DNA of 40,599 nt. Source: Erysipelotrichaceae bacterium (lineage in GTDB: Bacteria > Bacillota_I > Bacilli_A > Erysipelotrichales > Erysipelotrichaceae). This document shows, one piece after another, positions 9,924 through 40,599 of this stretch. The stretch is from positions 1 to 40,599 of the forward strand of contig JAISTR010000032.1 of assembly GCA_031272515.1 (NCBI GenBank), written 5' to 3'. The notes beneath the pieces were generated by a model. It saw nothing but the letters and a program-made list of their open reading frames with translations, was not told the origin of the DNA and ran no database searches. A program made the position numbers and the translations under genes. Within the stretch, counting starts at the first letter, position 1. The number at the start of each line of letters is the position of its first letter.

Positions 9924-12900
9924 ATGAAGGGGAAAAAACTTAAAACGACGACATTACGTCGCACCGGCCTTTTTGCAAGGCTCTTTCTTGTTTTACTGAG
10001 CTTTATGCTCACCACCAACGGCTTTCTGGTGCCGGTAAGGGCGGAGAACAACTCCATTGCCGTCACTGTCAGCAGTGCCAATCCAACCGGGATGTTAAGC
10101 GGAGATCGGGCTGAGCTCTTTCTCAACATCCGCGGCTACTCAGACTGGGTGGCAGCAATTCCGGTCCCGGATCCGGACCTTGGTGGAACCTTCGATAAAA
10201 ACGCGCTCTTGGCGGCTTTATCCACCACCGATTATTACATTGATGATTCCTATATCAGCACTGGTTTGCCAGCAGGCTTCGGCGATTTGAGCGGACAGAA
10301 GAATTACCTTCTGATTTATGGCAAACCGGCTTCAACGCATATTGTTTTCCTGTATTATACCTACCCCAATGGTACCACTCCTGATGATACTTCCCTGACT
10401 GTTAAGCCCTATATTTTCAACGCAACCTTCAACGGTTCCGCCAGCAGTGTTATCCCCGTCACCAGCGGCGGCAGCGTCTATGAAGGCAACAGTGTCACCC
10501 TGCAATGGAACACCAACGAAGACCTGTCTTTGGTGAAATCCCTCTCCCCGACGACACCGGCTTTTACGGACCTGGTGGGACGTCCCTATAATGACGTCAT
10601 CCTGCAGGACAATGAAGACAACTATGTCGTCACCTATACCGTTTCCTTATCCACCAACGGCTCTGGCAACAAGGGCCGGATTTTCATGGATGTAGTGAAG
10701 ATTTCCGATACCTTAAGCGGCTACAGCAAAAAGCCGACCTTGATTGAAATCAAGAATGGCGATACCCTGGTAGCCAGCAGTGCCAGCGACTTTACGATTG
10801 GTAATACCAGTACGACCTTCGAGTTTTCGGTTCCCCTGACCAACAATATGGTCACCAACCAGAACTTCACCGTCAATGTCACCTTTGACAAGGATGACTA
10901 TACCAAGATGCTTACCGATACCTCCAGCTATCCTTTGGCTGAGATTAACAACGAAGCAAAGCTCTACTATAAACCGGTTACAGCAAGCTCCGGCAGCTGG
11001 TTAAACGGCAACTCCGTTTCCACCAAGTTTGGCTGGAAACAGCTGGAACCCACTTTGCCCAGCTTGACCATCACGAAAAATATCAGCGTCAGCGGACAGC
11101 CTGACCAGGCGTACAATACAACCCTGGCTTCGGCTTATGAAAAAGCCTATGATGCGACACCATATGCGACAGGGGATGCTTCCAATGTGAAGTTCACCCT
11201 GACGAAAATCAAAGATGCCAGCGGCAATACGGTAAATGTTCCGCTGGAAAAATCCCTGATCCTCAATAGTTCCGGATCCAGCCTCACCTTCGGTGATGCC
11301 GGAGATTTCGGCAAGGCTACAGCCGGCCTGGAACCGGGTACCTATACCCTGGTTGAAAGCCAGAAGATCAGCGGTTACTTCCAAACTGTTGCTACCCACG
11401 AAATCAAAGTGACACAGCCGGAAAACGGTGTGTCCAAGATGTACATCGATAATGTGGAAGGCTACACTCTGCCAATTACCAACATTGCCGACACCACCGG
11501 GCGCATTCAGGTGCATGTCTCCCAACAAAAAGAATTTGAAGTTGCCCAAAACGGCGACCCCCTCTATGAAAACACGTCTGGTGCCAAATTCAAACTGATG
11601 GACGGCTCCACCGTCATCGGCTATGGCACCTCGGATGTAAACGGCAATATTATTTTTGAAAACGTGCCGCTGGGGAAAACCTATACCCTACAGCAGGATT
11701 ATGATTTGGGGTACTACGACACGGATAATACCATGCCGAAACTGATTCTGGACACAGCCAAATCAGACCTCACCGGGATTGCTTCCAGCAATTCCACCGT
11801 AAACAAATTTGAAGTCTACTACAAGCGCAATGAAGGCTCCATCTATACCGGCAAGCAGTTTGCCAGTTCCATGTATACCGGCGGCTTGGTTCCCAATGCC
11901 ATCATCGGCAACTTCAAGGCTACCTTCCACCTGGAATCTGCGGACGGAGTTGTGGTTCCGGGATCGACTTTCGTAATCAACGGGCAGGCCAATGCCGTCG
12001 CCCTGATTACCGATGCCAACAATCAGAAAGTCGGCATCTATCCGGGGACCTATCATATCGTGGAAGAAGAGCTGGTCATCGGTGGACAAACCTATACACC
12101 GTCCTCCACCAACGCTCCCTATACCTTTATTAAATATTCCGACAATGTCACAGTAGTGATTGAAGCAGGCAAGTGGAACTCCAAACCAATCGGAGCGTCC
12201 AATTTTGTCTCCTCAGAAGGCTTATTGATCGATACCACGACCTGGGGCGAGCTGGCAATCGACAGCAAGCTCATGGGCCCCTTAGATGATATTCAAACCA
12301 ACGCTTACGGCTTTACCATTGAGGCAAAAACCGGAGCACTGATGGGACAAACCATCGCGGTTTTACCCAACAACGGCTGGTCCGATGGAATCTACAAGAT
12401 TTTATTACCGGCAGGCACTTATGAAGTGGCTCCCACCAATCAGCCGGCCAATATGACGACGGTTGCCAGCATGGGTACTGACGCAAGTCAAGGCACGGGC
12501 AATGTCACGGTGGTTGTCACCGGTAGTGTGCCTTCGGATGTCAAAGACAATGTGACGGTGAATAATTCGACACCGCCCTATAATACCAGCATCGCCTACA
12601 ACGGCTCCAAGCAGACGGCTGTCTTTGTGCAGGCCTATCTGCCCAGCGTCTCCTTTATCAAGGAACGCTCGGATACCTCTGGTATGTTGGCGGGCGCAAA
12701 ATTCGCTCTGTACAAAGTCGAGGGTTCAAACTATGTGCTGGTGAAAGACAGCAGCAACAATCCGGTTATTGCGACCTCTACCGGAAGTTCCACAAACGTA
12801 ACCTTCACCAACGTTAAGATCGGCGAATATATCGCGGTGGAATATGATGTACCCAGTGGTTATATCGCCCAAACCAACCCGGCTTCGGTGTTTGCCCCCG

Positions 12901-15900
12901 CCGGGACGCTTTTGGACAGCGTCGCGATTTCTTCGGTATCGCAAGCCATCAAGGACAATCTGCCTTCCTTCACAATTACGCAGAAGGACTACTATCATGA
13001 AGCAGCTTATCCCGCAACCAAAACCGATGGTATCAATGGTGCCGTAACCCACTCGACTTTGAAAAACGCCCCGATTTATATCGCGAAAGTCAAAGCGGTG
13101 GATGCCGCAACCGGTGCTGATATCACCAGCGCCGCATTTAATCTGTACGAAGACGGTGCGTTGATTGGAACCGCAACCATCAATGCCGGCGGCTACTTTG
13201 TCTTTAAGGACAATAGCAATGCGGACATTCAGCTGCAGTTCAACAAAACCTACAAAGTGGTGCAGACCGCAACCAACAGCGGTGCTGATTATGTGCTGCC
13301 AGGCGAAGAAATCACCTTCACGATTACCGGTGACGGCGTACCTTCAAGCAGTGCGGACTGGAGCCTTGGCAGTGATACAAAAGATGATGCCACAGCCGGC
13401 ATCATTAAGAACTCCCAATACATTATTGACAGCACCAATCGCGTCATCAACATTAAAATGGGAAACCTGAAGAAACCGACCATCACCTTCAAAAAGCAAG
13501 GCCAGACCAATTTCTACAATAACGATGTTCGGCGCATTGATGATATTTCCGGTGGGACCTTCAGCATTTATTACCTGAATGGAGCCACAAAAATCTACAT
13601 TTATACCGGAACCGCACAAACCAACCCGCTCGGGGTGCTCGATATCAATCAGACCTTTGATCCCAGCAAGACCTACTACTTGGAAGAGACCACCGCCCCG
13701 GTTTATCAGCCGGAAGGGGAGCTCACGCCGCTGGCCTATCTGAAGGTGGATGATATTCCCTTTACCTTTGTATTAAACGCAGACAAGAGCGCCTATATCG
13801 CAAAAATCGAAGACTCGGTGGCTGATGTCTCGAAATATGGTGAGGGACAATACAACATCCTCAACCGCATCGAGCCCTACTACATTCACATCGTCAAACT
13901 GCCGGTGCGTCCGGTAGGGGATGATGGCGGAACCGGCCTGGACAGCGGAAAACCAAACGCAACCCCCTGCGCCTCCACTACGGATCCCACCTGCAAAATC
14001 GACATGACCGTAGACTTTAAAAACCAGGCGGAAAAGGATGCCGGGTGGGAAGAGCTGGGTGTCTATGATACCGAGTTTGAAATCTATCAGGCGATACAGT
14101 ATTCGGATAATAGCGAGTGGGGGCCCAAGACCAGTGACGGAACCAGTACCGGAACCGTGCTGGCACCTGTGCAAACCATTTCCACCGGTACCTATGGCAT
14201 GGATCCCAAGAATGATGCCAAATCTTCACAATTGCCATTTGGCGATTACTGGATTGTGGAATCCAAACCCGGCTTGAACTATGGCGAATTGGGAAGCTGG
14301 AGTGGCTTGAAGTGTGAAACCAATACCGCAAACTGCCCGAATGAATACAATGAACAGTCCACGGTCTATGTACATGATAATCCCTATGCCAATTACAACG
14401 GCAGCGGGAAAAGAGAAATCGATTCCGTATTGGATGATACCTGGACTGCCGTAACCCCGACCAATGAACAATACGGATACCTGCTGCATTTGACACAGGT
14501 GACAACAGATGTAAATAATGATGGAAAAATCGATGATGATGATAGGACCGCGGACATTATCTTTGGAGACTCCAACCGTCTGGATACCGGACGCGGGGAA
14601 GGCTCGGAAACCTACATCAAATTATGGGCTTACAAGATTGGTGCCTCCCGCTTGCCGAATGGCTTGCTGGAACTCTACCATCATGCGGATGATGCCACCA
14701 ATCAATATGACGGCAAACTGGAGGATGTGACATTCTACATCTATCCGGCAATTTATGATGGCATGGGTGACTTGGATGACCCGGCCAGCTACATAGAACT
14801 GCCCACCATCGGTGGCACAGCTATTGCGACTGTGACCTCGAAAAAGGACAGCCCGATGATTACCAGTTTCATCAATGCCAGTGCGGTCTTTAATTCCGGC
14901 TCTTTCAGCGGATCCACCTTCACCCCCAACGCAACCGGTGTAGACTGGGCGGCGGTGATTGCGGATCCTTCCTATGGAATCAATGAGTTGAAAGCAAAAG
15001 AACTGATGCTGAGCGCCAACCATGCCACCACCGGCAGCACCCCTGGCTATGCCTTTATCTGGAAGGAAGATATGAGTACGGTGCCGGAGGCTTTCGGCAA
15101 GACCGCGACCCAAACTTTGGTGACGGTTCACGGCTCCTATGTCAACAGTGGCATCGGCGGCTTCTTCAATGAGTGGGACGACCAGGGAAACAAGACCTAT
15201 TATGGTACGATGACTTATGAAGGAAGAAGCATTTCCATCACCCCGGAAATTGATAACACCCGCGGCTATGGAACATTACAAATCAAGAAAACCGACTTTG
15301 CCAATAGCGCAACCGTCATCCCCGGCGCAACCTTTGAAATCTATCAGGTTGATCCAGCCTGGGTAGAGACACAATATAGCGCAACCGATTCCAAGACCTG
15401 GAATGGACTGGCAGCAGTCAAAGCCGATGCGCTGGACCACCTGCTTGCCACCCCGGTCAGTATCGATGGCGTCAGCCAGTTCACGACCAATGCGAGCGGC
15501 ATCATTACTGTTACGCTGGAGCCTGGCTACTATGTGCTTAAAGAAGTCGCAGGTGCCACCGGCTATAACATCTTTGGGACCTATACCATTGATTATCCGG
15601 ACGGCCATTATAACGGCGACAACAGCAGGCCGCATCTGCCCGCTGATGAAAGCACGGCAGTCAGCTATGCCAGCGGGGCCAAGTTCGCTCTGATTGAAAT
15701 CAGCGATTATCAAAACGGCAATTTCGTCATCAATGTGACCAACAAGCAGCAACCGGACATCAAGGTCAAAAACTGGTGGAACGGGGTCGAGATGTATGAA
15801 GACACCTTCGCGACCAACTATGACCTGGTTGCACTTAGCAAAGCCTACAATGACTATGCGGTAATCAATGCCGTTGCGAAGCAGTTCGATAACCTGCCGG

Positions 15901-18900
15901 ATGGCGAGTATACCTTGAGCATGGATGCTTTGAGTAACGCGACAACCGCGCTTTTGGCAGACAACTATGTCGGCAACCCCAATGTCCTTGGCGGCAAGGT
16001 GGTTGTTACGGTAGCGGATGCCACCATCACCAGCATTAAGGTGGATGGGGTGGAAATCCTGCCAAACCCGGTGAATTCCACCGCCAAGAATGCGGACATC
16101 TGGCTGACTGTGGATCCGGACACCGGCATCATCACCATCAATGTCAACCACGCCTCCCAGGGAGCCCTGATTATCCGCAAAGGCGGAATCAACTCCATGG
16201 GTACAAAAGTCAACTATACCAGCTCCGGAGCAACCCAGGTTCCCAGCACGCTGACCAGCGCGACGTTTACCTTGTACAAATCCTTTGATGGCGGTCAAAC
16301 CTGGAGTCTTGCGACCTCTGAGGGCGTCAACGGTGTGATTACCTGGAACAGCGCAACCGATGCCAATATCGGGGTAAGGGAAAACCTGCCGCCCGGCTTA
16401 TACAAAGTGGTGGAAACATCCGTATCCAGCAATAGTGACTGGAGTATTGATGCCACCCCGGTTTATTTCGAAATCACAAATGATGGCGGTGCTGTCTATC
16501 TGACCAACCATGACTTTATCGGCGGAACAGATGAAAACGATGCTGACCATCCGTTAGTCTCCTCCAAGGATGTGGATGTTCAATACTTCTACAACACCTC
16601 CAAAGAGGGTACCTATGGCATCTGGAAACTGGCGAGCAAGGATGGCGGGACCTCCGACATCCTGGACGGAGCGGTCTTCTTGATCTACCCGGTCGCCAGT
16701 GCATCAGTGACCTCCATCACCACCGAAAAACCGTTTGCGATCGTCGAGGCGGACCGTACCATTTACTACTATGGCAGCGAAGACATCGTGACCTATTGCG
16801 CCACCTATGATGAGCATGGTCCCGTAACGCCGCCAAGCGACTGTATCATTGAAAACAATACGGGAGTGAAGTATCGTTTCCACGCCACAGGCGGAACCTA
16901 TATCTATAAGGAAATCACGGCGCCCAGCGGCTATGCGCTGCGCAGTGATGAAGTGAATGTAACAGTTGTTGCCGGCGTCGGGCCGCACTATGAAGGCTTT
17001 GAAGATCCTGACAATGTCAACGCCTCCGGCTTCCTCAACCCGCCAGTGGTCACCCTCAATGTCAAGAAGTGGGCTGAATATCCGGCGATTGAAGGAATCC
17101 CGGGCTCGGTCGCCAAAGATGTCATGATCGTCGGCATGCCCTTTGTCCTGTTTGTCAAGGATACCAGTAAAGCAAACTGCGACATTGACTCTGACCATCT
17201 CTTAAGTGACTACAGCGCTGCCTGTTATGACCAGGTCGGTGTTGCCCAGGTCACCTGGCTGGGGGCAAGCGATGCGACCCATACAACCGGTGTTGCCAAG
17301 TTTGTCATCGACCAGGAAGGGGAATACCGGATTCTGGAATACATCGGGGCCGGCCTGGAATATTTGGGCTTGAATGAAAACTTCTGTGCCCTGGATGCTG
17401 ACACCTGCTCCAGTGCTTCCATTAAGGATGATGACTATTTGGGCAAAAACAGTTATGCAACCATTACCGCTGTCTATGACCCTGATACCAATACCATGGT
17501 TCTCAGCGGAACAAACAGCAGCCTGTCCACCTGGACGGCTGACAGCAACCTGCTGGAGGTCAAGAACCCCTTCAACGGCTATCAGATTGCGGTAGAGAAG
17601 AAAGACTTCTATACCGGAGAGCTGGTGAAAGGTGCGACCTTTGCCCTCTATCAACAAAAAGTCGATGGAGCCGGTCAACCGGTTTACAAGGATGCAGCCA
17701 ATACCATTCCGGATTGCGAAACGACTCCGGCGCTCATCCAAGTGCCTTCAATTGACAACAACGGCAATGTCAACACCACCGCCAAGACTCAGCTGATTAC
17801 CGATGGTGCAACCACCGCGGTAAGCGGTGCCAGTGCGGATGGCACGGCGGACGGGTATGTTTATTTCGATCCCTTCTACCTCAATGTTTCTGAGTCCCGC
17901 ACCTATTGTGTCGCGGAGACGCAGGCGCCGTATGGCTATGTGATTGATGACTGGTTCTCCACCAATGTCCAATACATCACCATTAGCGGCAGCGATGAGG
18001 AAAAATCGGCAGTTTTGACCTTTGTGGATGGCCAGCCGGGCGATCCCAAGCTGACACCGGACAAGAGTGTTGCGGATGTTTCCGGCACGGTGCTGCGCGA
18101 GAGCGATATCAGCGCCACCTATACGATTGACCCGCAAACCGTCAATGGCGATGGTTCTGCCAACCCGGTCATCACCAACGGTCTGCCCATCTTCAACTAC
18201 ACCATCAGCGATCCGGGCTTCAGCTTCAGCGGTATGGTTGGCAATACGGAAACCTTGATACCGAGCAGTGCCGCCAATCATCCGACCTATGCAATCAACT
18301 ATATTACCATTGGCAAGTCCGAAGCTTATGCCAGTGCCCAAGCCCAAAAGGACGGTAGCTACAGTGCTGTCTGGGCCAGGGTGATTGTGACCAATGGAGC
18401 CGAAACGCAGGAGCTTGCCTGGAAGAAACTGGATGGCAGCCAAACCTGGAATCTCAGCAATTTGACTGACACCTCCAGCCAACCCTTCAAGGTAACCGGC
18501 TTTACCATTGAGTATTCCAGCATGGATCCGGCCAATGCGACCGCAACAGACGCGTATGGCAATGTCTTTGATGAAGACAGCCTCTGGGTCGGCAGCCAGT
18601 TTAAACCCGGCAGTGTCACCTATGGTGTGACCTTCAACAAGTTCTCACCGACCGCCAGTCAGCCGGAAGTCACCATCATTAAAAACACCGCGACCATCAC
18701 GGGTGTCCATAATGAAAAAGACCTCAAGGGCGAAGATACGGTGAAACTGGAACTCAATGCTCCCAAGCGCCCGTTAATGGGGGTTTCCAAAACCCTGGAT
18801 GCGATTTATTATTCCAGCAGCAGTCCGTTGACACTGGACAGCGAAACCCCGAAAGATCCGGGTCTGCTTCCGGAACCCAATGATTATATTGCCTATACGT

Positions 18901-21900
18901 CGACCCTGACCAATGTGGCGACGGCAGATAATCTCGATTTGGCCTATCCGATTATGATTGACGTAATGGAAGAAGACGCGATGAGTCTGAAGTTCTATAT
19001 CCTGACTTTGCCGGACGGCAGCGTCTTTGACAGCCGTTCCAACCCCTGGGTAAACTTCGAAAACAACAACGATACCTACCTGGTCTGGCGCTTCCCGAAT
19101 CTCACCTTGAAACCGGGTGAAACCATTACGGTTCAAACCTACTATCAATTGAATACAATCGTCCCGCGTTCCAGCATCACCAATGAAATCTATGGAACCA
19201 GCGGAACGCCGCTGTCCTTCTCGGCGACCTATCCGACCGGAGCCAGCTTCGAAGCCGCCATTGAGGACTACACCGGCACTTATGTCAAGAACATGATTGA
19301 TCCCAATGCGGTCTATGTCGGTGCCGATGCCAATACCTGGTATGGCAAGACCGGGACAACCCCGGCCCAATCGCAGGCTTACTATGACAAACTGGCAGCC
19401 TTCGGAGAGGACTTCCCGTTAGAAGCCGGCTATGACCTCTTTGTAAGGGCGGCAGTGGAAAACGAGCCGATTATGGCTTCGTCCTCCATGGCCATCCAAA
19501 AATCACAACAGGTCTATCACGAAGATACGGGTGAATTGACCACCTGGCGTCTGGACAACGATCCGACCCCGCAGGAAATCTACTTCGGGGATACCGTGAC
19601 CTATCGTCTGCGCATGCAAACACCGAAGTTTGATACCAAAGGCGTGGTAATCTATGACCTGTTACCGGCTTCGGGCGATGTGCGCGGCACCAGCTGGAAC
19701 GCAAGCCTGCTTGACTATTACAAATTGAGTGGGGAATACACGATTACCGTGAATGATCCGGCGCAGGGCATCAGTACCCTGGTCTATGACGGGACCTCGG
19801 TGGTATCCTTCACCAACAACATTTCCGGCTTCCAAATCGAGGATGTCGTGGTCTCTTCCGCGACCGCTGGCGTGTCGGTTTACAACGACATGTTGACGGC
19901 AGCCTATACTACCGGACTGGATCCGGATGCCCAGGCAGTCAAGTTCGACTTTGGCACAACCCTGTTCAAGGAAAACACCCTGATCTCGATTGAGTACAAG
20001 GTAAAACTGAATGCCCCGGCCACAGCGGATGCACCTGCCCTGTTGGCAGCCAATGCCCGCAAGGAAGCGATCAACAACATCTCTGTAAGCTACACCATGA
20101 ATATTCCGGTGGCGGAACTCGATCCGGATACCAATGATTACTATCATGAAGTGAGTGTGGATATGTATGCCTCACCCAAGAATGTTCACCTGATTCTGAT
20201 TCCGGGCGATGATGTGATTTCCGGTTTGGTCTGGGAAGACATGGATGCGGATGGCTTTAGCACCACTGCTGATAACGGCACTGATCCCTGGGATAAGCCC
20301 ATGGAAAATGTGACCGTGAAACTGCACAAATACATTGATGCCGTGGAAGTGTTCCCGGATAAAGCCGACCCGAGTGATCCGGATCCGGATGCCTGGGACA
20401 GCACCTTCACCGATGCCAACGGCCTGTACTACTTCTATGGACAGCAGTCCTCCTATGGTACGCCTTATGGTACCTCCGGGCAACCCGGCTACATCGGCGA
20501 GGTCACCTATCGGATTGAGGTAGTCAAACCGACCGATGCAAATTATGGCTTCACCTATACAAATGCCACCCCGGCTGATCCGGAGCATGACTCCGATATC
20601 TATCAAACGCCGGTTGGCGGCAAGTACTACAGCGAACTGTTCGCTTTGAAATCCGGGCACGTCGTCGATGCCGGTCTGGTACAGACCGTATCCATCAGCG
20701 GCAGCATCTTCCGTGACTTCAATGATGACGGCTATAAAGGCGATGCCTTCCCGAGCTACCCGAGTGATACCAGCTTATTGTGGGGCGCTTGCCTGGCCAA
20801 TTACACACCGGGTCTGAGTCTCTTGGATACCGCCTGCGGCACCACGGTCACCGTCTCATTATGGCGCTATGACGCCAGTGTTGGTGACTATGTCAAGGTC
20901 GTTGCGGACCCGGCACCCTCGCCCTTTGGCATCAGCCTGTTTGCGACACCGGTACCGGTGGAGAAGAAAGTTCCCTTCCTGGAAATCAATACCGGCATCG
21001 CCGCCCTGGGCTTCGGGATTAGCAGCATTACCCAGCAGCCCGGATCCTATACCTTCGACAATCTGCTGCCTGGCATCTACCAGGTACGCTTCGACCGTAC
21101 GGATTTAAGTTCGCCGTATGAGGAATATGTCTGGGCCATCACGGATACGCTTTCCGGGACAGCGACAGGCTATGACTCCAAAGCGGATCCGGATGCAAGT
21201 GATGTCGAAAGCCTCAAAGCCGCCACCCTGGATATCACCCTGAAGTACAGCGCCGGGGATACCGGCATGGTACTCAAGGGCGTGTCGGATGTCGATGCCG
21301 GCTTGGTGCCGGAACTCTATCATCTCTCCGGCATGGTCTGGAACGACCTGAATAAAAACGGCATCAAGGATGACGGCAGCTATCCGGTCGGCTATGACTA
21401 TGACAACCGGATTGCGGCAGTCGAAAACCCGATTTCCGGAGTTCTGGTAAGCTTGTACATGTCGAGCGATGGCGGTGCTACCTACACCAAGATTGCGGAT
21501 GCCACGACCCGGATTGATGGAAGCTACAGCTTCTATGGCGACTGGGACAGCGATGATCCGGGAAGCCCGAGTGTCGGACTTCCGGAACCCAATGCCTCCC
21601 TGATGTATAAAGTGGAGTTCGCCAAACCGAATGCGAAGTTTGAATTCTCACCGCAGGATGTCAATAAGGCAAGCCTGGGTGATCCGACTTACAACTCGCC
21701 CTTGGCAACGCTCAACGCCGACCTGATTGACTCCGACGTCGACAGCAGCGGTGTCCGCATCGTCGGCTATGCCAGCGATGGCATCCTGCTTAGGGCCAGC
21801 GTGGTACCGGGGTTTGAACATGCCGATGCCGGTATGTACCGGCGTCCGGATGATCCGGCTTCCATCAACACCGCCTATGGTGCTGAGTATGCGACCTGGA

Positions 21901-21965
21901 TCTTCATGATGGCAGCCGCAGCACTGTTTGGTGTCATGCGCGTAAAACGTAAAAAGGAAGAATAA
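9924..21965 (+). CDS. Giant SpaA/Cna-B and SdrD-B repeat surface protein
   Basis: This is a 4013-residue uninterrupted protein. The signal peptide is MKGKKLKTTTLRRTG plus a hydrophobic core, with likely cleavage after VRA near residue 40. An N-terminal adhesin-like region (about 40-370) precedes some fourteen SpaA/Cna-B-type modules starting near residues 378, 525, 662, 774, 906, 1049, 1184, 1317, 1561, 1782, 2079, 2229, 2373 and 2551. They carry the typical GATFEIYQ/GAKFALYK and late Glu motifs such as KEITAPSGYAL and AETQAPYGYV, expected to form Lys-Asn isopeptide bonds. Residues about 2710-3420 resemble DUF11/fimbrial-type domains. Three SdrD-B-like Ca-binding modules follow (about 3431, 3590 and 3800, for example WNDLNKNGIKDD). 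The C-terminus is hydrophobic (WIFMMAAAALFGVM) plus KRKKEE, with no LPXTG. Fourteen cysteines occur in pairs. It is probably an adhesin or stalk; no sortase is nearby. Confidence 0.9.
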   Translation: MKGKKLKTTTLRRTGLFARLFLVLLSFMLTTNGFLVPVRAENNSIAVTVSSANPTGMLSGDRAELFLNIRGYSDWVAAIPVPDPDLGGTFDKNALLAALSTTDYYIDDSYISTGLPAGFGDLSGQKNYLLIYGKPASTHIVFLYYTYPNGTTPDDTSLTVKPYIFNATFNGSASSVIPVTSGGSVYEGNSVTLQWNTNEDLSLVKSLSPTTPAFTDLVGRPYNDVILQDNEDNYVVTYTVSLSTNGSGNKGRIFMDVVKISDTLSGYSKKPTLIEIKNGDTLVASSASDFTIGNTSTTFEFSVPLTNNMVTNQNFTVNVTFDKDDYTKMLTDTSSYPLAEINNEAKLYYKPVTASSGSWLNGNSVSTKFGWKQLEPTLPSLTITKNISVSGQPDQAYNTTLASAYEKAYDATPYATGDASNVKFTLTKIKDASGNTVNVPLEKSLILNSSGSSLTFGDAGDFGKATAGLEPGTYTLVESQKISGYFQTVATHEIKVTQPENGVSKMYIDNVEGYTLPITNIADTTGRIQVHVSQQKEFEVAQNGDPLYENTSGAKFKLMDGSTVIGYGTSDVNGNIIFENVPLGKTYTLQQDYDLGYYDTDNTMPKLILDTAKSDLTGIASSNSTVNKFEVYYKRNEGSIYTGKQFASSMYTGGLVPNAIIGNFKATFHLESADGVVVPGSTFVINGQANAVALITDANNQKVGIYPGTYHIVEEELVIGGQTYTPSSTNAPYTFIKYSDNVTVVIEAGKWNSKPIGASNFVSSEGLLIDTTTWGELAIDSKLMGPLDDIQTNAYGFTIEAKTGALMGQTIAVLPNNGWSDGIYKILLPAGTYEVAPTNQPANMTTVASMGTDASQGTGNVTVVVTGSVPSDVKDNVTVNNSTPPYNTSIAYNGSKQTAVFVQAYLPSVSFIKERSDTSGMLAGAKFALYKVEGSNYVLVKDSSNNPVIATSTGSSTNVTFTNVKIGEYIAVEYDVPSGYIAQTNPASVFAPAGTLLDSVAISSVSQAIKDNLPSFTITQKDYYHEAAYPATKTDGINGAVTHSTLKNAPIYIAKVKAVDAATGADITSAAFNLYEDGALIGTATINAGGYFVFKDNSNADIQLQFNKTYKVVQTATNSGADYVLPGEEITFTITGDGVPSSSADWSLGSDTKDDATAGIIKNSQYIIDSTNRVINIKMGNLKKPTITFKKQGQTNFYNNDVRRIDDISGGTFSIYYLNGATKIYIYTGTAQTNPLGVLDINQTFDPSKTYYLEETTAPVYQPEGELTPLAYLKVDDIPFTFVLNADKSAYIAKIEDSVADVSKYGEGQYNILNRIEPYYIHIVKLPVRPVGDDGGTGLDSGKPNATPCASTTDPTCKIDMTVDFKNQAEKDAGWEELGVYDTEFEIYQAIQYSDNSEWGPKTSDGTSTGTVLAPVQTISTGTYGMDPKNDAKSSQLPFGDYWIVESKPGLNYGELGSWSGLKCETNTANCPNEYNEQSTVYVHDNPYANYNGSGKREIDSVLDDTWTAVTPTNEQYGYLLHLTQVTTDVNNDGKIDDDDRTADIIFGDSNRLDTGRGEGSETYIKLWAYKIGASRLPNGLLELYHHADDATNQYDGKLEDVTFYIYPAIYDGMGDLDDPASYIELPTIGGTAIATVTSKKDSPMITSFINASAVFNSGSFSGSTFTPNATGVDWAAVIADPSYGINELKAKELMLSANHATTGSTPGYAFIWKEDMSTVPEAFGKTATQTLVTVHGSYVNSGIGGFFNEWDDQGNKTYYGTMTYEGRSISITPEIDNTRGYGTLQIKKTDFANSATVIPGATFEIYQVDPAWVETQYSATDSKTWNGLAAVKADALDHLLATPVSIDGVSQFTTNASGIITVTLEPGYYVLKEVAGATGYNIFGTYTIDYPDGHYNGDNSRPHLPADESTAVSYASGAKFALIEISDYQNGNFVINVTNKQQPDIKVKNWWNGVEMYEDTFATNYDLVALSKAYNDYAVINAVAKQFDNLPDGEYTLSMDALSNATTALLADNYVGNPNVLGGKVVVTVADATITSIKVDGVEILPNPVNSTAKNADIWLTVDPDTGIITINVNHASQGALIIRKGGINSMGTKVNYTSSGATQVPSTLTSATFTLYKSFDGGQTWSLATSEGVNGVITWNSATDANIGVRENLPPGLYKVVETSVSSNSDWSIDATPVYFEITNDGGAVYLTNHDFIGGTDENDADHPLVSSKDVDVQYFYNTSKEGTYGIWKLASKDGGTSDILDGAVFLIYPVASASVTSITTEKPFAIVEADRTIYYYGSEDIVTYCATYDEHGPVTPPSDCIIENNTGVKYRFHATGGTYIYKEITAPSGYALRSDEVNVTVVAGVGPHYEGFEDPDNVNASGFLNPPVVTLNVKKWAEYPAIEGIPGSVAKDVMIVGMPFVLFVKDTSKANCDIDSDHLLSDYSAACYDQVGVAQVTWLGASDATHTTGVAKFVIDQEGEYRILEYIGAGLEYLGLNENFCALDADTCSSASIKDDDYLGKNSYATITAVYDPDTNTMVLSGTNSSLSTWTADSNLLEVKNPFNGYQIAVEKKDFYTGELVKGATFALYQQKVDGAGQPVYKDAANTIPDCETTPALIQVPSIDNNGNVNTTAKTQLITDGATTAVSGASADGTADGYVYFDPFYLNVSESRTYCVAETQAPYGYVIDDWFSTNVQYITISGSDEEKSAVLTFVDGQPGDPKLTPDKSVADVSGTVLRESDISATYTIDPQTVNGDGSANPVITNGLPIFNYTISDPGFSFSGMVGNTETLIPSSAANHPTYAINYITIGKSEAYASAQAQKDGSYSAVWARVIVTNGAETQELAWKKLDGSQTWNLSNLTDTSSQPFKVTGFTIEYSSMDPANATATDAYGNVFDEDSLWVGSQFKPGSVTYGVTFNKFSPTASQPEVTIIKNTATITGVHNEKDLKGEDTVKLELNAPKRPLMGVSKTLDAIYYSSSSPLTLDSETPKDPGLLPEPNDYIAYTSTLTNVATADNLDLAYPIMIDVMEEDAMSLKFYILTLPDGSVFDSRSNPWVNFENNNDTYLVWRFPNLTLKPGETITVQTYYQLNTIVPRSSITNEIYGTSGTPLSFSATYPTGASFEAAIEDYTGTYVKNMIDPNAVYVGADANTWYGKTGTTPAQSQAYYDKLAAFGEDFPLEAGYDLFVRAAVENEPIMASSSMAIQKSQQVYHEDTGELTTWRLDNDPTPQEIYFGDTVTYRLRMQTPKFDTKGVVIYDLLPASGDVRGTSWNASLLDYYKLSGEYTITVNDPAQGISTLVYDGTSVVSFTNNISGFQIEDVVVSSATAGVSVYNDMLTAAYTTGLDPDAQAVKFDFGTTLFKENTLISIEYKVKLNAPATADAPALLAANARKEAINNISVSYTMNIPVAELDPDTNDYYHEVSVDMYASPKNVHLILIPGDDVISGLVWEDMDADGFSTTADNGTDPWDKPMENVTVKLHKYIDAVEVFPDKADPSDPDPDAWDSTFTDANGLYYFYGQQSSYGTPYGTSGQPGYIGEVTYRIEVVKPTDANYGFTYTNATPADPEHDSDIYQTPVGGKYYSELFALKSGHVVDAGLVQTVSISGSIFRDFNDDGYKGDAFPSYPSDTSLLWGACLANYTPGLSLLDTACGTTVTVSLWRYDASVGDYVKVVADPAPSPFGISLFATPVPVEKKVPFLEINTGIAALGFGISSITQQPGSYTFDNLLPGIYQVRFDRTDLSSPYEEYVWAITDTLSGTATGYDSKADPDASDVESLKAATLDITLKYSAGDTGMVLKGVSDVDAGLVPELYHLSGMVWNDLNKNGIKDDGSYPVGYDYDNRIAAVENPISGVLVSLYMSSDGGATYTKIADATTRIDGSYSFYGDWDSDDPGSPSVGLPEPNASLMYKVEFAKPNAKFEFSPQDVNKASLGDPTYNSPLATLNADLIDSDVDSSGVRIVGYASDGILLRASVVPGFEHADAGMYRRPDDPASINTAYGAEYATWIFMMAAAALFGVMRVKRKKEE

Positions 21966-22064: not shown

Positions 22065-22139
22065 GCCGTCGTAGCTAAGTGGTATAGCACTTCCATGGTA
22101 AGGAAGGGGCCGGGTGTTCGACTCACCTCGACGGCACCA
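22065..22139 (+). tRNA. trnT: tRNA-Thr (anticodon GGT)
   Basis: The cloverleaf can be read directly: acceptor GCCGTCG / CGACGGC, D arm GCTA-AGTGGTA-TAGC, anticodon stem CTTCC / GGAAG with loop ATGGTAA (anticodon GGT), variable GGGCC, and T arm GGGTG-TTCGACT-CACCT. The discriminator is A and the CCA end is encoded (22137-22139). It decodes ACC and ACU. No attachment-site duplication or integrase was seen next to it. Confidence 0.97.
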
Positions 22140-24410: not shown

Positions 24411-25940
24411 TTATATTGCTTCCAAACTGCATCCCGCATCTTCGGCAACGGAAATGAGTTCCTGATTGACAATTGCCTGATAGATTTTCGCAATATCCGG
24501 TGCCGGCATGCGGTCCTTGTCCAGATGCAAAACCTGTTTGCGGATGCAGGCATGCACGGCCGCAGTGCCTTTGCCTGGTGTCAATGGCGCCAGAAAGTCA
24601 ATGCCCTGGCAAGCCATCATCATCTCAATCGCCAACACCTGGCGGACATTCTCCAAAATCATCCGTGCCTGCCTGGCTGCAATCGTCCCCATGGAAACAT
24701 GGTCTTCCTGATTGGCGGAGGTGGGGATGGAATCCACCGAAGCCGGATGGGCCAGGACCTTGTTTTCCGATACCAGCGAAGCGGCGGTGTATTGGGGAAT
24801 CATATAGCCGGAGTTGACGCCGGGATAAGCGGTCAAGAATTCCGGCAAATCCGAGAGCCTGCTGTCCACCAAGCGGAAGCAACGTCGCTCGGAGATATTG
24901 CCGATTTCCGCCAGGGCGATTTTCAGGTAATCCATTACCAGGGCAATGGGCTGTCCATGGAAGTTGCCGCCGGAGAGAATCTCACCGGTATCCGCCATCA
25001 CCAAAGGATTGTCGGTGACGGAATTGATCTCCACCAGAATCGTCTCGATGGCTCTTCTCAAGGCATCCTTGGAGGCGCCGTGTACCTGCGGCACACAGCG
25101 CAGGGAATACGCATCCTGCACCTTGTCGCAGTCGATATGACTCTCGATGATCTTTGAGTTTTCGGTTAAAGACAGCACATTTTTGGCGGTTTGAATTTGG
25201 CCCTGATGCGGCCGAATGAGGGAGATGCGCATATCCAAAGCCGTACGGGTTCCCCGCAGGGCTTCCAGTGACAAAGCGGAGGCGATATCCGCAACCTTCA
25301 TCAAATCCAAAGCGTCATAGGCGCATAGGGTTGCGATGGCACTCATAATCTGGGTGCCGTTAATCAGCGCCAGTCCTTCCTTGCCCGCCAGCTTGATGGG
25401 GGTAAAGCCAGCTTTCTTTAAGACCGGCTTGGCGGGCACGCTCTTATCGTTTAAAAGCACAAAGCCTTCCCCCAACAGCACAGCGGCAATGTGCGCCAAA
25501 GGTGCCAAATCCCCGGAGGCCCCAACGGAGCCCTGCGAGGGCACGGCTGGGGTGATGTCTTTGTTTAAGAGCTCCACCAGCTTTTGCAAAGTGCTTACCC
25601 GGATACCGGAATAGCCGATGCTTAAGGAATTGATGCGCAAAACCATCGCAGCCCGCACGGTTTCCTTGGATAACAGCTCTCCCACGCCGGTACAATGCGA
25701 GATAATCAGGTTGTGCTGCAGGGCTTCACGGTCGTCGGCATCGATGGGTATTTTCGCAAGTTCCCCAAAACCGGTGGTAATGCCATACACCGCTTTTTCT
25801 TCCTTTAAAATCGCTTCCACATAGGTACGGCTTTTGGCGACCTGCGAAATGACTTTGTCTGAAAGCCTTACTTCTTCATGAAAGCGGGCAATCCGCACTA
25901 CATCGGATAAACTTAAGCCTTCACCTTTGATTTCAATCAT
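24411..25940 (-). CDS. hutH: Histidine ammonia-lyase
   Basis: This is a 509-residue cytoplasmic enzyme that deaminates L-histidine to urocanate. The start MIEIKGEG at 25940 forms an ATGA junction with the hutI stop and has GGAGGAG 6 nt upstream; a start 15 nt earlier would put that site inside the gene. The MIO cofactor triad Ala-Ser-Gly is seen at residues 141-143 in GSVGASGDLAPLAH. Other family marks are YGITTGFGELA, LRINSLSIGYSG and GNFHGQP. It is the third gene of a tight hutU-hutI-hutH operon. Confidence 0.95.
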   Translation of the reverse strand: MIEIKGEGLSLSDVVRIARFHEEVRLSDKVISQVAKSRTYVEAILKEEKAVYGITTGFGELAKIPIDADDREALQHNLIISHCTGVGELLSKETVRAAMVLRINSLSIGYSGIRVSTLQKLVELLNKDITPAVPSQGSVGASGDLAPLAHIAAVLLGEGFVLLNDKSVPAKPVLKKAGFTPIKLAGKEGLALINGTQIMSAIATLCAYDALDLMKVADIASALSLEALRGTRTALDMRISLIRPHQGQIQTAKNVLSLTENSKIIESHIDCDKVQDAYSLRCVPQVHGASKDALRRAIETILVEINSVTDNPLVMADTGEILSGGNFHGQPIALVMDYLKIALAEIGNISERRCFRLVDSRLSDLPEFLTAYPGVNSGYMIPQYTAASLVSENKVLAHPASVDSIPTSANQEDHVSMGTIAARQARMILENVRQVLAIEMMMACQGIDFLAPLTPGKGTAAVHACIRKQVLHLDKDRMPAPDIAKIYQAIVNQELISVAEDAGCSLEAI

Positions 25941-27178
25941 TTTCTTCTCCTCCATCGAAACAGCTTTCCCTTTTTTATCACCGCACCGGTCTGATTGAAC
26001 CCGTAGCGGTAGAAGATCATCGGAAATTGCAGGGTATCCCAAATTACCAGGTCGGCTTGCTTGCCTGGCTCGATGGTGCCGATACAATCGGCCCTATCAA
26101 TACTTGCGGCTGCGTTTAAGGTCACCGCACAAAGAACCTCATTGGGTGTCATTCTATACTTCAAACAGCCCAGATTCATTGCCAGCTGCAGATTGGGGCT
26201 GGGGGTTGAGCCTGGATTGAAGTCGCTGGCAATCGCAACCGCAACCCCGGCGTCAATCATCTCCCTGGCCCTGGCATAGCCTTTATCCAGGTACAGGGAG
26301 GTGCAGGGCAAAAGCACGGCGATGGTGCCGCTTTTCGCCAACGCTTCAATGCCCGCATCATCGGCGGCAATCAAGTGCTCCGCAGAGACACAAGCCATTT
26401 TGGCAGCCAGCTGTGCCCCCTGACCGCCTTCCAGCTCATCGACGTGCGCTTTCAAAGACAGGCCAGCCGCTTTGGCGGCCTTTAAAATGCGTTCGCTTTC
26501 TTCATTGGAAAACACCCCGTGTTCACAGAAGACATCGCAGAATTCCGCCAGGCCTTCCGCTTTGATTTTGGGGATAATGGTTTCGCATAAAAGATCAATA
26601 TAGGCTTTCCGGTCTTCAAGGTATTCTTGTGGGACGGCATGCGCCCCCAGAAAGGTATTGACGATATCTACCGGATGTCCGTTTAGCTTGCGGGTGATCA
26701 AGAGCTGTTTCTTCTCATTTTCATAGTCCAGACCATAGCCGCTCTTGGCCTCCAGGGTCGTAACTCCCAAGTCAAACATGAGCTTGAGGAAATAGCGGGT
26801 CTTTTTTTCCAGTTCCAAAAAGCTGGCTTTGCGGGTCGCCCTGACCGTAGATAAGATACCGCCGCCCGAGCGCAGGATATCCAGATAGGACTCTCCCTTC
26901 AGCTTGCGGTCAAACTCATCACTGCGCCAGCCCCCGAAGACCAGATGGGTATGGGAATCCACCAAGCCTGGTGTCACGACACTGCCCTTGCAGTCAATTT
27001 CGGTGTCACCATGATAATCCTGATTGGCACTGCCCACATAGGCAATCTGTTGCTTATTGATGCCGATCATCGCTTCCGGCATCATGAAAACCTCGCCCTG
27101 TTTATCACCTGCTTTCGCTTTACTCCCCAAGGGGGTGACCAGAAAAGCGTTTTTGACTAACAGGTCAAAGGTGGTCAT
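25937..27178 (-). CDS. hutI: Imidazolonepropionase
   Basis: This is a 413-residue amidohydrolase-superfamily enzyme that opens the ring of 4-imidazolone-5-propionate to formiminoglutamate. Metal-site motifs are visible: VDSHTHLVFGG (HxH), KAHVDELEGG (His plus the catalytic Glu of this family), SAEHLIAADD and ASDFNPGSTPSPNLQ (metal Asp). The N- and C-termini form the usual composite beta domain (VIWDTLQFPMIFYRYG near the end). It overlaps hutU upstream and hutH downstream by 4 nt each, so the three are translationally coupled. Confidence 0.95.
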   Translation of the reverse strand: MTTFDLLVKNAFLVTPLGSKAKAGDKQGEVFMMPEAMIGINKQQIAYVGSANQDYHGDTEIDCKGSVVTPGLVDSHTHLVFGGWRSDEFDRKLKGESYLDILRSGGGILSTVRATRKASFLELEKKTRYFLKLMFDLGVTTLEAKSGYGLDYENEKKQLLITRKLNGHPVDIVNTFLGAHAVPQEYLEDRKAYIDLLCETIIPKIKAEGLAEFCDVFCEHGVFSNEESERILKAAKAAGLSLKAHVDELEGGQGAQLAAKMACVSAEHLIAADDAGIEALAKSGTIAVLLPCTSLYLDKGYARAREMIDAGVAVAIASDFNPGSTPSPNLQLAMNLGCLKYRMTPNEVLCAVTLNAAASIDRADCIGTIEPGKQADLVIWDTLQFPMIFYRYGFNQTGAVIKKGKLFRWRRRK

Positions 27179-29205
27179 GGCTTGGCCTTTTTCGCGAAGG
27201 CTTTGGCTACCGCTTCGCTGACCAGTGCATCATCCGCTATAAAGGGCAGGGTGATATGTCCTTGTCCCTGATACTTTTCGTTGTATTCTTTCGCGACTGT
27301 TATGGAATTGGGGTTTCGTGCCCAGCTGCGCCGGGCAACACCGCCCATGACATCCCACATCAGCGCACTCTCGATAATTTTACTGGCCCGATCTGAGCCG
27401 TCCAGAACCATGCCAAAGCCGCCATTGATGGCTTTGCCAATGCCGACACCGCCGCCATTGTGCAGGGCTACCAGGCTCATGCCTCTGGCGGCATTGCCGG
27501 CGAAGCACTGCACCGCCATATCGGCCATGACATTGGAGCCGTCTTTGATATTGGAGGTCTCCCGGAAGGGGCTGTCCGTCCCGGAAACATCATGATGGTC
27601 CCGCCCCAGCATGATCGGTCCTTTCAGTTCCCCGTTTTTCACCATTTCATTAAAGCGCAAAGCGATGCGGGTTCTGCCTTCGGCATCCTGATACAGGATG
27701 CGGCACTGGGTGCCGACGACCAGCTGGTTCTTTTCGGCATCGCGGATCCAGATCCAGTTGTCACGGTCCTGACCGCGGCGGTTGGGGTCTATGCAGTCCA
27801 TGGCTGCCTGGTCGGTCTTGATCAAATCGCTGTGATCCCCGCTCAAACAGCACCAGCGGAAGGGTCCATAGCCATAGTCAAAGAGCTCGGGTCCCAAAAT
27901 ATCCTCCACATAGCTGGGAAAGATAAAACCATCTTTTTCGTCAATCCCATTCTTGGAGATTTCCTTGACCCCGGCGTCGTAGACCGCCTTCAAGAAAGAA
28001 TTTCCATAGTCAAAGAAATAGGAACCCCGCTCATGCAGAATCTTGATGAGCTCAAAGTGCTTGCGCAGGGTCTTGTCGACTTCGGTCTTAAAACCCTGTG
28101 GATCCCTGCTCAGCATTTCCGTTCTTTGCGCATAGCTCATGCCCATCGGGCAGTAACCGCCATTGTAGGCATTGTGACAGGAGGTCTGGTCAGAGAGCAG
28201 GGGAATATGGATATTGTGGTCCACCGCATACTGCAACAGATCCACGATGTTGCCATGATAGCCGATGGATAAAGCCTCTTTGTTTTTAAGCGCTTTATCG
28301 GCCAGCGCAAAGACCTCATCCAGATTATCGCTGCAGACCTTCAACCAGCCCTGATCCAGTCTGGTTTGAATGCGCGAGCGGTCCACCTCAGCAATGATGC
28401 CCACACCCCCGGCGATTTCAATCGCCTTGGGCTGCGCACCACTCATCCCGCCCAAGCCAGAGGTCACAAACAGGATGCCCGCCAGATCTTTATCCTGGGG
28501 AACTCCCAGTTTCATTCTGGCGGCATTGAGGATGGTATTGAAGGTGCCGTGGACAATCCCCTGGGGCCCGATATACATCCAGCCGCCAGCGGTCATCTGG
28601 CCATAGTTGGCAACCCCCATCTCTTCCGCAATTGACCAGTCGTCCATGTTGTCAAACATGCCGACCATCAAGGCATTGGTCAGAATTACCCGGGGTGCCT
28701 CCGGCTTGCTGGGAAAGAGTCCAACCGGGTGGCCGGACTCCAATACCAGGGTCTGCTGGTCCGTTAAGACTTCCAGGTATTTTTTGGTCAGGCGGTATTG
28801 CAGCCAATCGTGGAAGACACTGCCGGTTTCCCCATAGGTGACCAGTTCATAGGGATATAAGCCGACTTCAAAGTCGAGGTTGTTGTCAATCATGACCTGG
28901 AAGGCTTTGCCTTCGATGCAGTTGCCTTTGTATTCTTGGATTGGTTTACCATAGATGCGTCCCTGGGGACGGAAGCGGTAGGCATAGATTCTTCCATAAG
29001 TGGTGAGTTCTTCTAAGAATTCATCCGCAACCAGGGGATGCAGGCTTTCAGGCAGATAGCGCAAGGCATTCTTTAAGGCCAGTTCGGTTTGGTCCTTGGT
29101 CAGATGGAAGCCGCGGGATGGAGCCCGGCGGATGCCGTCAATAAACTGCGGGTATTCCGGAAGCGAATCATCGAGTTGCATGCGCAGGATTTTTGTTTGG
29201 TTCAT
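27175..29205 (-). CDS. hutU: Urocanate hydratase, long form
   Basis: This is a 676-residue enzyme that converts urocanate to imidazolonepropionate with tightly bound NAD+. The start MNQTKILRMQ at 29205 follows GGAGGGG. The NAD+-binding motif is clear in FVTSGLGGMSGAQPKAIEIA, and the active-site region in TDQAAMDCIDPNRRGQDRDN and SDQTSCHNAYNGGY. Classic proteobacterial and Bacillus urocanases have about 550 residues. This protein is of the longer type known from several anaerobes and animals. First gene of the hut operon, divergent from ftcD. Confidence 0.95.
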   Translation of the reverse strand: MNQTKILRMQLDDSLPEYPQFIDGIRRAPSRGFHLTKDQTELALKNALRYLPESLHPLVADEFLEELTTYGRIYAYRFRPQGRIYGKPIQEYKGNCIEGKAFQVMIDNNLDFEVGLYPYELVTYGETGSVFHDWLQYRLTKKYLEVLTDQQTLVLESGHPVGLFPSKPEAPRVILTNALMVGMFDNMDDWSIAEEMGVANYGQMTAGGWMYIGPQGIVHGTFNTILNAARMKLGVPQDKDLAGILFVTSGLGGMSGAQPKAIEIAGGVGIIAEVDRSRIQTRLDQGWLKVCSDNLDEVFALADKALKNKEALSIGYHGNIVDLLQYAVDHNIHIPLLSDQTSCHNAYNGGYCPMGMSYAQRTEMLSRDPQGFKTEVDKTLRKHFELIKILHERGSYFFDYGNSFLKAVYDAGVKEISKNGIDEKDGFIFPSYVEDILGPELFDYGYGPFRWCCLSGDHSDLIKTDQAAMDCIDPNRRGQDRDNWIWIRDAEKNQLVVGTQCRILYQDAEGRTRIALRFNEMVKNGELKGPIMLGRDHHDVSGTDSPFRETSNIKDGSNVMADMAVQCFAGNAARGMSLVALHNGGGVGIGKAINGGFGMVLDGSDRASKIIESALMWDVMGGVARRSWARNPNSITVAKEYNEKYQGQGHITLPFIADDALVSEAVAKAFAKKAKP

Positions 29206-29246
29206 AGTTGGCCCCTCCAGAAAATCAGGTCTTATCAATTACTACA

Positions 29247-29275: not shown

Positions 29276-29294
29276 TGAAATCGATGGTTTTTCC

Positions 29295-29323: not shown

Positions 29324-29348
29324 TAAGGAAAGTGATGGAGGCGGGAAT

Positions 29349-38550: not shown

Positions 38551-38580
38551 AAAGAAAACCGCTCAGTCGCGGTTTTCTTT
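38551..38580. terminator. Bidirectional terminator between convergent genes
   Basis: A perfect 12-bp stem AAAGAAAACCGC / GCGGTTTTCTTT with loop TCAGTC, T-rich on both strands. The loop contains the TGA stop (38563-38565, minus strand) of the surface-protein gene, so the last codons of that gene form one arm. Confidence 0.9.
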
Positions 38581-40599
38581 TTTCTTGGCTAATCTTTGTA
38601 CTTTCTTATTCGCAAAGGCGAAGATCAGGGCACCTGCCCCAAACAGGGCGGTCCAGCCGGTCAGCTCCATGTTGTAGCTGGTCGGGACCACCGGCGGATT
38701 GTAGGGTGCTGCCGGGGTTGCGGGTGTGGGCGATGCAGTTGTAGCGGGAGCAGTCCAGATGGCATAGAGGGTGATATTGCCGTTTACGGCAGGGATCGTA
38801 TCTGTCAAGCCATAAATGGCACCCAGAATGACATGTTCACTCGCACTCTTGATGACACCGGAACCGGAATTGAAGGCAGTTGCCTTGAAGGTGACTGCGC
38901 CGGTCGGACTGGTACCCCAGCCCGCAAAGGTATAGGACCCGTTGCTGTTATAGGGAGCACCTGCCGGAACCATCGTGGATTGCAGGGCGAAGGGTGCGCC
39001 AATCGCGACCGTCTGCGCTGCCGGTACCGAGGTCACGCCATCGGTGGCGCCGGAGGGAATATTCTTGTCGAAGGTGATGGTAGCTGTGGTAGCTGGTGCA
39101 CTTTCACTCCAAATCGCATATAAGGTAATATTGGCAGTGACGTTTTGAATGGCGGCACTGGGACCGTAAACAACCGGTCCGGAGGCGGAAGTTGCCCAGC
39201 CATCAAAGACATAGGTCTTGCCAGTCTCCTGCGGTGCACCGCTGGGTTGTCCCAAGGCAGAGCTGTCGTTTCCTTCCTTGACGATTTGCGATACCGGGAC
39301 GGCCACGTTGTCGATGGTGCCTGAAGGCAGGTTCTTGTCAAAGGAAATCGTATACTTGTTAGCTGGAGCTTTCCAGGTCGCATAGAGAACCACATCAGAC
39401 GTGATTGGATTGATGGTACCGGCGGAACCGTATACGGGTGAACCGGAAGCTGAGGTCGCCCAGCCGGTGAACTCATATTCCTCACCATCACTGTTGACCG
39501 GACGGCCAATCGGCGCCCCCAGCGGATCGCTTTGATCCCCGGAGTGCAGGGTTTGGGTTGCGGGCATGGCGGTGTTGTTGATGGCACCGCTGGGAATATT
39601 CGCATTATACGTGATCGTAACCACCGGGCCCAATGGCGCAGGCGCCTGCCAGATGGCATAGAGGGTCATGTCAGCGGTTACTGCCGCAACCGTTCCCGAA
39701 CTGGAATAGGTCGCGGTGGTATCACTGGAATTTTCGGACCAGCCCAAGAAGATATAGCTGCCATCCGAATTGGTGAAGGTACCCGTCGGACCGCCCAAAA
39801 CGCTACTTGCGGTGCCGGAGGTGATGCCGGTTTGATTGCTTGGCAGGGTCACAGAGCCGGAGGCACCGGAGGGCTTGTTGTCATTGTAGATAATACTATA
39901 GGTATTGGGTACCGGAGCAGACCATATCGCATAGAGATCAATGTCGGAGGTCACATTGTTGATGGTATCGGTACTGCTGTAGGTCGCGGTGGTCGCCAAA
40001 GCATTTTGCGACCAGCCCAAAAAGGTATAGCTGCCGACCGCATTGCTGGGGGCGCCGGTTGGCGAACCCAGGGCAGCACTGGCCGCGCCGGAGTTGACCG
40101 TTTGGTCAGTCGGCAGGGCAGAGATATTATCAGTCGATGAACTGGGCAGGTTTTTATGGTAGGTAATCGTATAGGTAACTACCGTCGGTGCCTGCCAGAT
40201 GGCATAGAGGTCCATGTTGGCAGATACATTGCTGATGGTATCGGTGCTGCTGTAAGTTGCCGAAGTATCAGAAGCGGTTTCGGACCAGCCTAAGAAGGTG
40301 TAGCTGCCAATCGCATTGCTGGGGGCGCCGGTTGGCGAACCCAGGGCGGCACTGGCTGCGCCTGAGTTGACCGTTTGGTCAGTGGGCAGGGCCGTGATGT
40401 TATCGGTTGCGGAAGCCGGCAGGTTTTTATGGTAGGTAATTGAATAGGTTACTACCGTTGGTGCCAGCCAGATCGCATAGAGGGTTTTGTTGGCATCGAT
40501 GTCCTCAATCTTGTCCCCTACATCAAATTCCGGGGTAGTGGACGAGGATGTCTCTGACCAGCCTTCAAAGCTGTAACTGCCATTGGCATTGACAGGGGT
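38563..40599 (-). CDS. InlB/Listeria-Bacteroides repeat surface protein, 5' end beyond window
   Basis: The last 678 codons are present; the frame is open to the right edge, so the true start is outside. The protein is made of tandem modules of about 91 residues with the Flg_new/InlB-B-repeat pattern: (Y)TITYHKNLPS..., GSYTFLGWSE..., TLYAIWQAP. Six modules and part of a seventh are visible. After the last comes a Pro/Thr/Ala linker (TASPTPATPAAPYNPP), then VPTSYNMELTGW, a hydrophobic segment (TALFGAGALIFAFA) and a basic tail (NKKVQRLAKKKENRD). This is the layout of a wall-anchored protein, but LPXTG is absent. The function is probably adhesive or structural. Confidence 0.88.
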   Translation of the reverse strand, partial: TPVNANGSYSFEGWSETSSSTTPEFDVGDKIEDIDANKTLYAIWLAPTVVTYSITYHKNLPASATDNITALPTDQTVNSGAASAALGSPTGAPSNAIGSYTFLGWSETASDTSATYSSTDTISNVSANMDLYAIWQAPTVVTYTITYHKNLPSSSTDNISALPTDQTVNSGAASAALGSPTGAPSNAVGSYTFLGWSQNALATTATYSSTDTINNVTSDIDLYAIWSAPVPNTYSIIYNDNKPSGASGSVTLPSNQTGITSGTASSVLGGPTGTFTNSDGSYIFLGWSENSSDTTATYSSSGTVAAVTADMTLYAIWQAPAPLGPVVTITYNANIPSGAINNTAMPATQTLHSGDQSDPLGAPIGRPVNSDGEEYEFTGWATSASGSPVYGSAGTINPITSDVVLYATWKAPANKYTISFDKNLPSGTIDNVAVPVSQIVKEGNDSSALGQPSGAPQETGKTYVFDGWATSASGPVVYGPSAAIQNVTANITLYAIWSESAPATTATITFDKNIPSGATDGVTSVPAAQTVAIGAPFALQSTMVPAGAPYNSNGSYTFAGWGTSPTGAVTFKATAFNSGSGVIKSASEHVILGAIYGLTDTIPAVNGNITLYAIWTAPATTASPTPATPAAPYNPPVVPTSYNMELTGWTALFGAGALIFAFANKKVQRLAKKKENRD
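38755..40599 (-). repeat. Tandem 273-bp coding repeats
   Basis: The LYAIW landmark recurs at about 38755, 39109, 39373, 39649, 39922, 40195 and 40468, that is at spacings of 354, 264, 276, 273, 273 and 273 bp. The last units are very alike at the DNA level: the stretches starting at 40041 and 40314 are almost identical for about 70 bp and stay similar beyond. The 354-bp unit carries an insertion. This marks recent unit duplication and a site for length change by recombination. Confidence 0.85.

Follow-up and report, generated by a model that had tools for sequence, protein, structure and literature searches.

The 40,599-nucleotide stretch of Erysipelotrichaceae DNA analysed here (the window, contig C36 of its genome) encodes two surface proteins with unrelated bodies, one carrying SpaA and SdrD_B domains and the other List_Bact and SHIRT repeats (Pfam), whose C-terminal tails align without gaps. 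A first-pass annotation described the tails correctly, and went on to propose that the pentapeptide common to them, [IV][NP]T[AS]Y, may be the recognition site of an unusual sortase or another anchoring enzyme. The question raised by this locus is whether T-[AS]-Y constitutes a new anchoring motif or a variant of the signals carried by other surface proteins of the same genome. As discussed further below, we consider it probable, at roughly three chances in four, that both tails are off-consensus sorting signals of the genome's own kind and most likely substrates of its one class B sortase; the new anchoring motif was a tempting false lead, corrected here. The features on which the comparison rests are the following.

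9924..21965, + strand: giant surface protein, 4013 aa (translation; Pfam)
21861..21878, + strand: giant-protein motif S-I-N-T-A-Y (sequence; Thr-anchored comparison with 19 other signals; alignment with a paralogue on contig C2)
21879..21962, + strand: giant-protein spacer with Trp as its last residue, then a hydrophobic helix and a basic tail, GAEYATW-IFMMAAAALFGVM-RVKRKKEE (sequence; C-terminal scan)
38563..40599, - strand: List_Bact_rpt/SHIRT repeat surface protein with a predicted C-terminal sorting signal, at least 678 aa (translation; Pfam)
38674..38691, - strand: repeat-protein motif V-V-P-T-S-Y (sequence; Thr-anchored comparison; VPTSMSETPYPW of the related genome G004, with equal Thr-to-Trp spacing)
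38566..38673, - strand: repeat-protein spacer with Trp as its last residue, then a hydrophobic helix and a basic tail (sequence; C-terminal scan)

Two tails and the case for a shared motif

The giant protein is composed of an N-terminal signal-peptide-like stretch (MKGKKLKTTTLRRTGLFARLFLVLLSFMLTTNGFLVPVRA, which fits a signal peptide by eye), SpaA (prealbumin-like) domains, SdrD_B and a predicted C-terminal sorting signal (PF17802 in 8 stretches, 1.6e-53; PF17210, 7.1e-13). Its translated C-terminus reads ...PASINTAYGAEYATW-IFMMAAAALFGVM-RVKRKKEE, or, over a different span, SINTAYGAEYATW-IFMMAAAALFGVM-RVKRKKEE, and the segment INTAYGAEYATW (21864-21899, + strand) precedes the hydrophobic run and basic tail. 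The frame of the repeat protein (PF09479, 1.9e-28; PF18655, 3.7e-9) is cut by the end of the contig at 40599, so that its N-terminus lies beyond the contig; its C-terminus reads ...PVVPTSYNMELTGW-TALFGAGALIFAFA-NKKVQRLAKKKENRD, or, over a different span, VVPTSYNMELTGW-TALFGAGALIFAFA-NKKVQRLAKKKENRD, with the segment VPTSYNMELTGW (38653-38688, - strand) again leading into a hydrophobic run and a basic tail. The translations place both tails where the first-pass annotation had reported them, and its comparison with cell-wall sorting signals is borne out by the helix, the basic tail and the placement of Thr: both tails display the Gram-positive architecture of a Thr at the position of the LPXTG Thr, a short spacer, a helix and a K/R tail. 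Elsewhere in the window, a tRNA-Thr gene (ggt) lies at 22065-22139, 100 bases 3' of the giant gene, and positions 24411-30257 hold a histidine degradation cluster (a HutH-like member of the aromatic amino acid lyase family, an amidohydrolase, urocanase and formiminotransferase).

The further claim that the pair shares something special did not hold. When anchored on Thr, the two tails agree at 4 of 12 positions, which ranks them 60th among the 210 pairs formed by 21 signals of the genome, and their similarity reaches P = 0.038 in a within-segment shuffle with W fixed and a single register, for a match that had been chosen post hoc. A pairwise likeness this weak would, taken by itself, suit two C-terminal membrane anchors that resemble each other by coincidence and never were sorting signals. 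That explanation is very improbable, however, given that the position and architecture of both tails agree with those of 19 further signals in this genome, and it is already disfavoured by the alignment of the giant protein with a SpaA paralogue whose clear TGV motif falls in the aligned place (see below).

Searches for further carriers of the motif point in the same direction. The pattern T-[AS]-Y-x6-W, written with GCN/TCN codons only, has 18 matches genome-wide against 26 in a reversed control, and hence no excess; the repeat protein, whose Ser is encoded by AGC, falls outside these 18, among which only the giant's own tail is a C-terminal match with sorting-signal architecture. BLAST of the giant tail against its own genome returns only itself, and a profile that includes both window tails retrieves TGV proteins and no new T[AS]Y proteins. 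T-[AS]-Y is confined to the two window proteins and occurs in 0 of 30 signals collected from nine related genomes. This lack of enrichment among the other secreted proteins of the genome is the outcome that the first-pass annotation had itself named as speaking against its proposal.

The sorting signals of the genome and the register of the motif

Surface proteins of the genome were gathered without regard to any motif, from List_Bact repeats, SpaA domains, the stretches surrounding them, and open reading frames ending in a hydrophobic run plus basic tail; shadow frames and multi-span membrane proteins were removed from the tail list by eye. The census, which draws on searches for domains, on scans with profiles and on targeted stretches, is a non-exhaustive sample of the secreted proteins and comprises 19 surface proteins, including a 441-aa protein on contig C6 that entered through the tail filter without a domain match. 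Fourteen of the 19 carry Gly at P1' after Thr (or Ser), in the form x-T/S-G-[V/T/M] and at the same distance from the helix: IPTGV, VLTGV (twice), ANTGT, PLSGV, LDTGV, PLTGV (twice), MATGV, APTGV, PLTGM, VPTGV, PVTGT and TVTGV. The five without a Gly motif are PLSAT, PIVSTS, PLTYT and the two window tails. Profile scans added three neighbouring genes on contig C4 ending in PLTGV, PPTGV and PLTGV, and, on C14, a frame of 3602 aa that carries VNAGV.

Across the 21 Thr-anchored signals, position -2 is mostly P, V or I and position -1 mostly L, P or V, Thr is present in 18 and Gly in 16, the next position holds V in 13 and T in 4, and an aromatic residue (W/Y/F) stands at +9 in 14. The consensus of the genome is about [P/V/I]-[L/P/V]-T-G-[V/T]; after it come some 7 spacer residues, the last of them often W/Y/F, then a hydrophobic helix and a K/R tail. 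Both window tails agree with this pattern at -2, at Thr, in the spacer and in the Trp at +9, and depart from it in the two residues that follow Thr (A-Y and S-Y). They share the Thr and the architecture of the x-T-G-V class and lack its Gly at P1' and Val or Thr at P2'; no further signal in the genome has Tyr at P2'. The LPXTG model PF00746 found no protein above its cut-off in the whole genome, and the giant tail scored 11.6 bits against a cut-off of 20.

The register of the giant motif is indicated by its SpaA paralogue on contig C2, a protein longer than 4300 aa which ends in TVTGV. The last 330 residues of the two proteins align locally through the tail (...GMYRR--PDDPASINTAYGAEYATWIFMM against ...GLYRRTTPSNPGTTVTGVNNSLTIWVVLL), so that the Thr residues coincide and the Trp residues do too; GTTVTGVNNSLTIW is aligned to ASINTAYGAEYATW, W on W. 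By this alignment TAY occupies the place of TGV, and the LPXTG-equivalent pentapeptide reads S-I-N-T-A rather than I-N-T-A-Y. For the repeat protein, a relative on contig C6 that ends in MATGV aligns well up to the linker and the global alignment does not put TSY on TGV; the proposed equivalence of TSY with TGV comes from using Thr as anchor and from the spacing to the helix. Comparison with the other signals of the genome gives S-I-N-T-A and V-V-P-T-S as the LPXTG-equivalent pentapeptides, with S-I-N-T-A-Y corresponding to x-P-L-T-G-V and V-V-P-T-S-Y to V-V-L-T-G-V. The register of [IV][NP]T[AS]Y that had been proposed is one residue out, other secreted proteins carry x-T-G-V at the place where a special enzyme was to read it, and a new pentapeptide or separate signal is not supported by these comparisons.

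A single class B sortase and its predicted substrates

Only one sortase was found in the genome (PF04203 at E <= 1; 2.13 Mb, 97% complete), on contig C54. The enzyme matches TIGR03064 with 146 bits (8e-43), just below the curated cut-off of 153.75 (NCBIfam), and all 15 of its significant matches in the PDB belong to the sortase B group, some of them as unnamed chains, the best being Clostridioides difficile SrtB (9e-25). His149, Cys248 and Arg256 lie in the expected contexts and complete the His-Cys-Arg triad. Judged by its sequence, the C54 enzyme is a class B and not a class A sortase, distant from its named relatives (24-37% identity). At locus L001 (G000:C54:72862-76338) it is encoded directly 3' of an ftsZ-like gene, whose product reads as FtsZ from its sequence; the arrangement recurs in one other genus of the family (G031, L187), with FtsZ 57% identical. 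The frame directly 3' of the sortase encodes a 1675-aa List_Bact repeat protein ending in IPTGV.

The suggestion of an unusual sortase is accordingly retained in part: the genome is a non-LPXTG genome with one detected sortase, of class B rather than A, and PF00746 and PF04203 found nothing of the alternative that the annotation had also allowed for, namely ordinary LPXTG proteins with a sortase A; the part that fell away is a dedicated T[AS]Y site. That T-[AS]-Y is read by an additional, specialised sortase or by some other anchoring enzyme, as originally proposed, is highly improbable. Such an enzyme would account for the combination of Tyr at P2' with Ala or Ser at P1' in two proteins only, both on this contig, but it is at odds with the single sortase detected, with the want of any further T[AS]Y-x6-W C-terminus under the GCN/TCN pattern, with the TGV proteins returned by the profile that includes both tails, and with the TGV that the SpaA paralogue carries in the same place.

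According to the reading that we prefer, the C54 class B sortase would cleave after Thr and join the proteins to peptidoglycan, acting as the only (housekeeping) sortase and anchoring all of these surface proteins. The window proteins have Ala or Ser in place of Gly at P1' and Tyr in place of Val or Thr at P2'; we infer cleavage of the giant protein at T|A and of the repeat protein at T|S, with linkage to the wall, perhaps less efficiently owing to the P2' Tyr. The deviation of both proteins at two adjacent positions, P1' and P2', counts against this reading. Bacillus anthracis SrtB depends on its P2' residue (PMC11987632), so the window tails, to which Tyr at P2' is unique, might be poor substrates. 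A variant in which T-[AS]-Y forms a second substrate class of the same sortase, with slow cleavage, membrane retention or polymerisation of the giant protein, and with two populations distinguished by P1' and P2', appears quite improbable.

Signals of relatives and known class B systems

The relatives searched all belong to other genera. The last 499 aa of the giant protein yielded no orthologue in 145 genomes of the family, the C2 paralogue being the only match. From the tails of List_Bact and SpaA proteins in nine related genomes, 30 non-LPXTG signals were selected and anchored by eye; among them P1' is Gly in 20, Ser in 6 and Ala in 4. With 10 of 30 carrying Ala or Ser, these residues at P1' fall within the family's usual range, and both window tails belong to the T-[GAS] class that recurs among the relatives. 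Ala and Ser are found mainly in G016 (VTSD, NTSV, NTAS), G018 (DTSD, DTAD twice), G001 (NTSV, NTST) and G004. In the last of these, which represents another genus, VPTSMSETPYPW equals VPTSYNMELTGW in four residues (VPTS) and in the distance from Thr to Trp; the G004 assembly (87% complete) has one match to the C54 sortase. None of the 30 signals from the nine genomes has Tyr at P2'. Three tails of the relative G002 (L246, L251, L253) carry T-N-Y or A-N-Y directly at the helix with no spacer; these are possibly a cousin of T-[AS]-Y or an NPQTN-like variant, too few and too differently spaced for a closer comparison.

The range of P1' residues in relatives also bears on the view that the window tails are degenerate signals that have lost cleavage, the proteins being held in the membrane by the C-terminal helix and basic tail. 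This view draws on the departure of both tails from the consensus at P1' and P2' and on the likewise off-consensus PLSAT, PIVSTS and PLTYT, a pattern in keeping with drift in a surface repertoire that is rich in repeats and evolves fast. However, the P1 Thr, the spacer length, the Trp, the helix and the basic tail are intact in both proteins, and Ala and Ser at P1' are common among relatives, and we regard loss of cleavage as unlikely, though the least unlikely of the alternatives.

Known class B systems offer several parallels to the preferred reading, that of off-consensus substrates of the C54 sortase. The only sortase of C. difficile, the class B enzyme SrtB, cuts (S/P)PXTG at the bond from Thr to Gly, and a housekeeping role has been suggested for it (PMC4155245). 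The present system resembles that of C. difficile in the single class B enzyme for diverse surface proteins and in the small residue or Pro before x-T-G, and differs in the Val or Thr after Gly, in the Ala or Ser at P1' of some signals, and in the residue before Thr, which is mostly Leu, Pro or Val here and Lys, Gln or Ser in C. difficile. N or S at P1' is known from other class B substrates (NPQTN and NPKSS, alongside NPKTG; PMC11987632), and as in these Staphylococcus aureus, B. anthracis and Listeria systems, in which P1' is not strictly Gly and residues after the pentapeptide can matter (PMC11987632), Gly is not invariant here. In contrast, IsdC is the only known substrate of SrtB in each of S. 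aureus and B. anthracis, whereas about 20 substrates are predicted here and Asn at P4 is absent. The streptococcal SrtB of AbpA (LPKTxAVK; NF040525) likewise pairs a class B-related sortase with a non-LPXTG signal, but the C54 enzyme scores only 59.8 bits against that model (cut-off 200), and motif and host differ. A class A sortase also accepts LPXTA and LPXTS in vitro (PMC9520033).

The window tails would then be of an ordinary kind and belong, off consensus, to a repertoire of class B sorting signals, and the genome is likely a further example of a class B enzyme acting as general housekeeping sortase. In this lineage, surface proteins should be sought by [P/V/I]-x-T-[G/A/S]-[V/T] before a C-terminal helix and not by LPXTG; standard LPXTG models miss a large surface-protein repertoire. 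That repertoire is larger than seen, because contigs C36 (at 40599), C54 and C30 end within repeat-protein frames, with List_Bact matches reaching the last bases of C54 and C30. Several short frames found by profile (C54:52085, C6:45311, C8:6608, and others on C43 and C3) were judged to be chance, shadow or uncertain. Two very short frames have signal-like ends: one of 69 aa (L312, G000:C52:6800-6892) with a tail like VPTGVTANIQLL...RSKRN, and one of 50 aa (L302, G000:C54:52085-52180) with a tail like VVTGATNETTTWL...KKRA; they could represent very small substrates of the sortase, remnants of genes, or chance.
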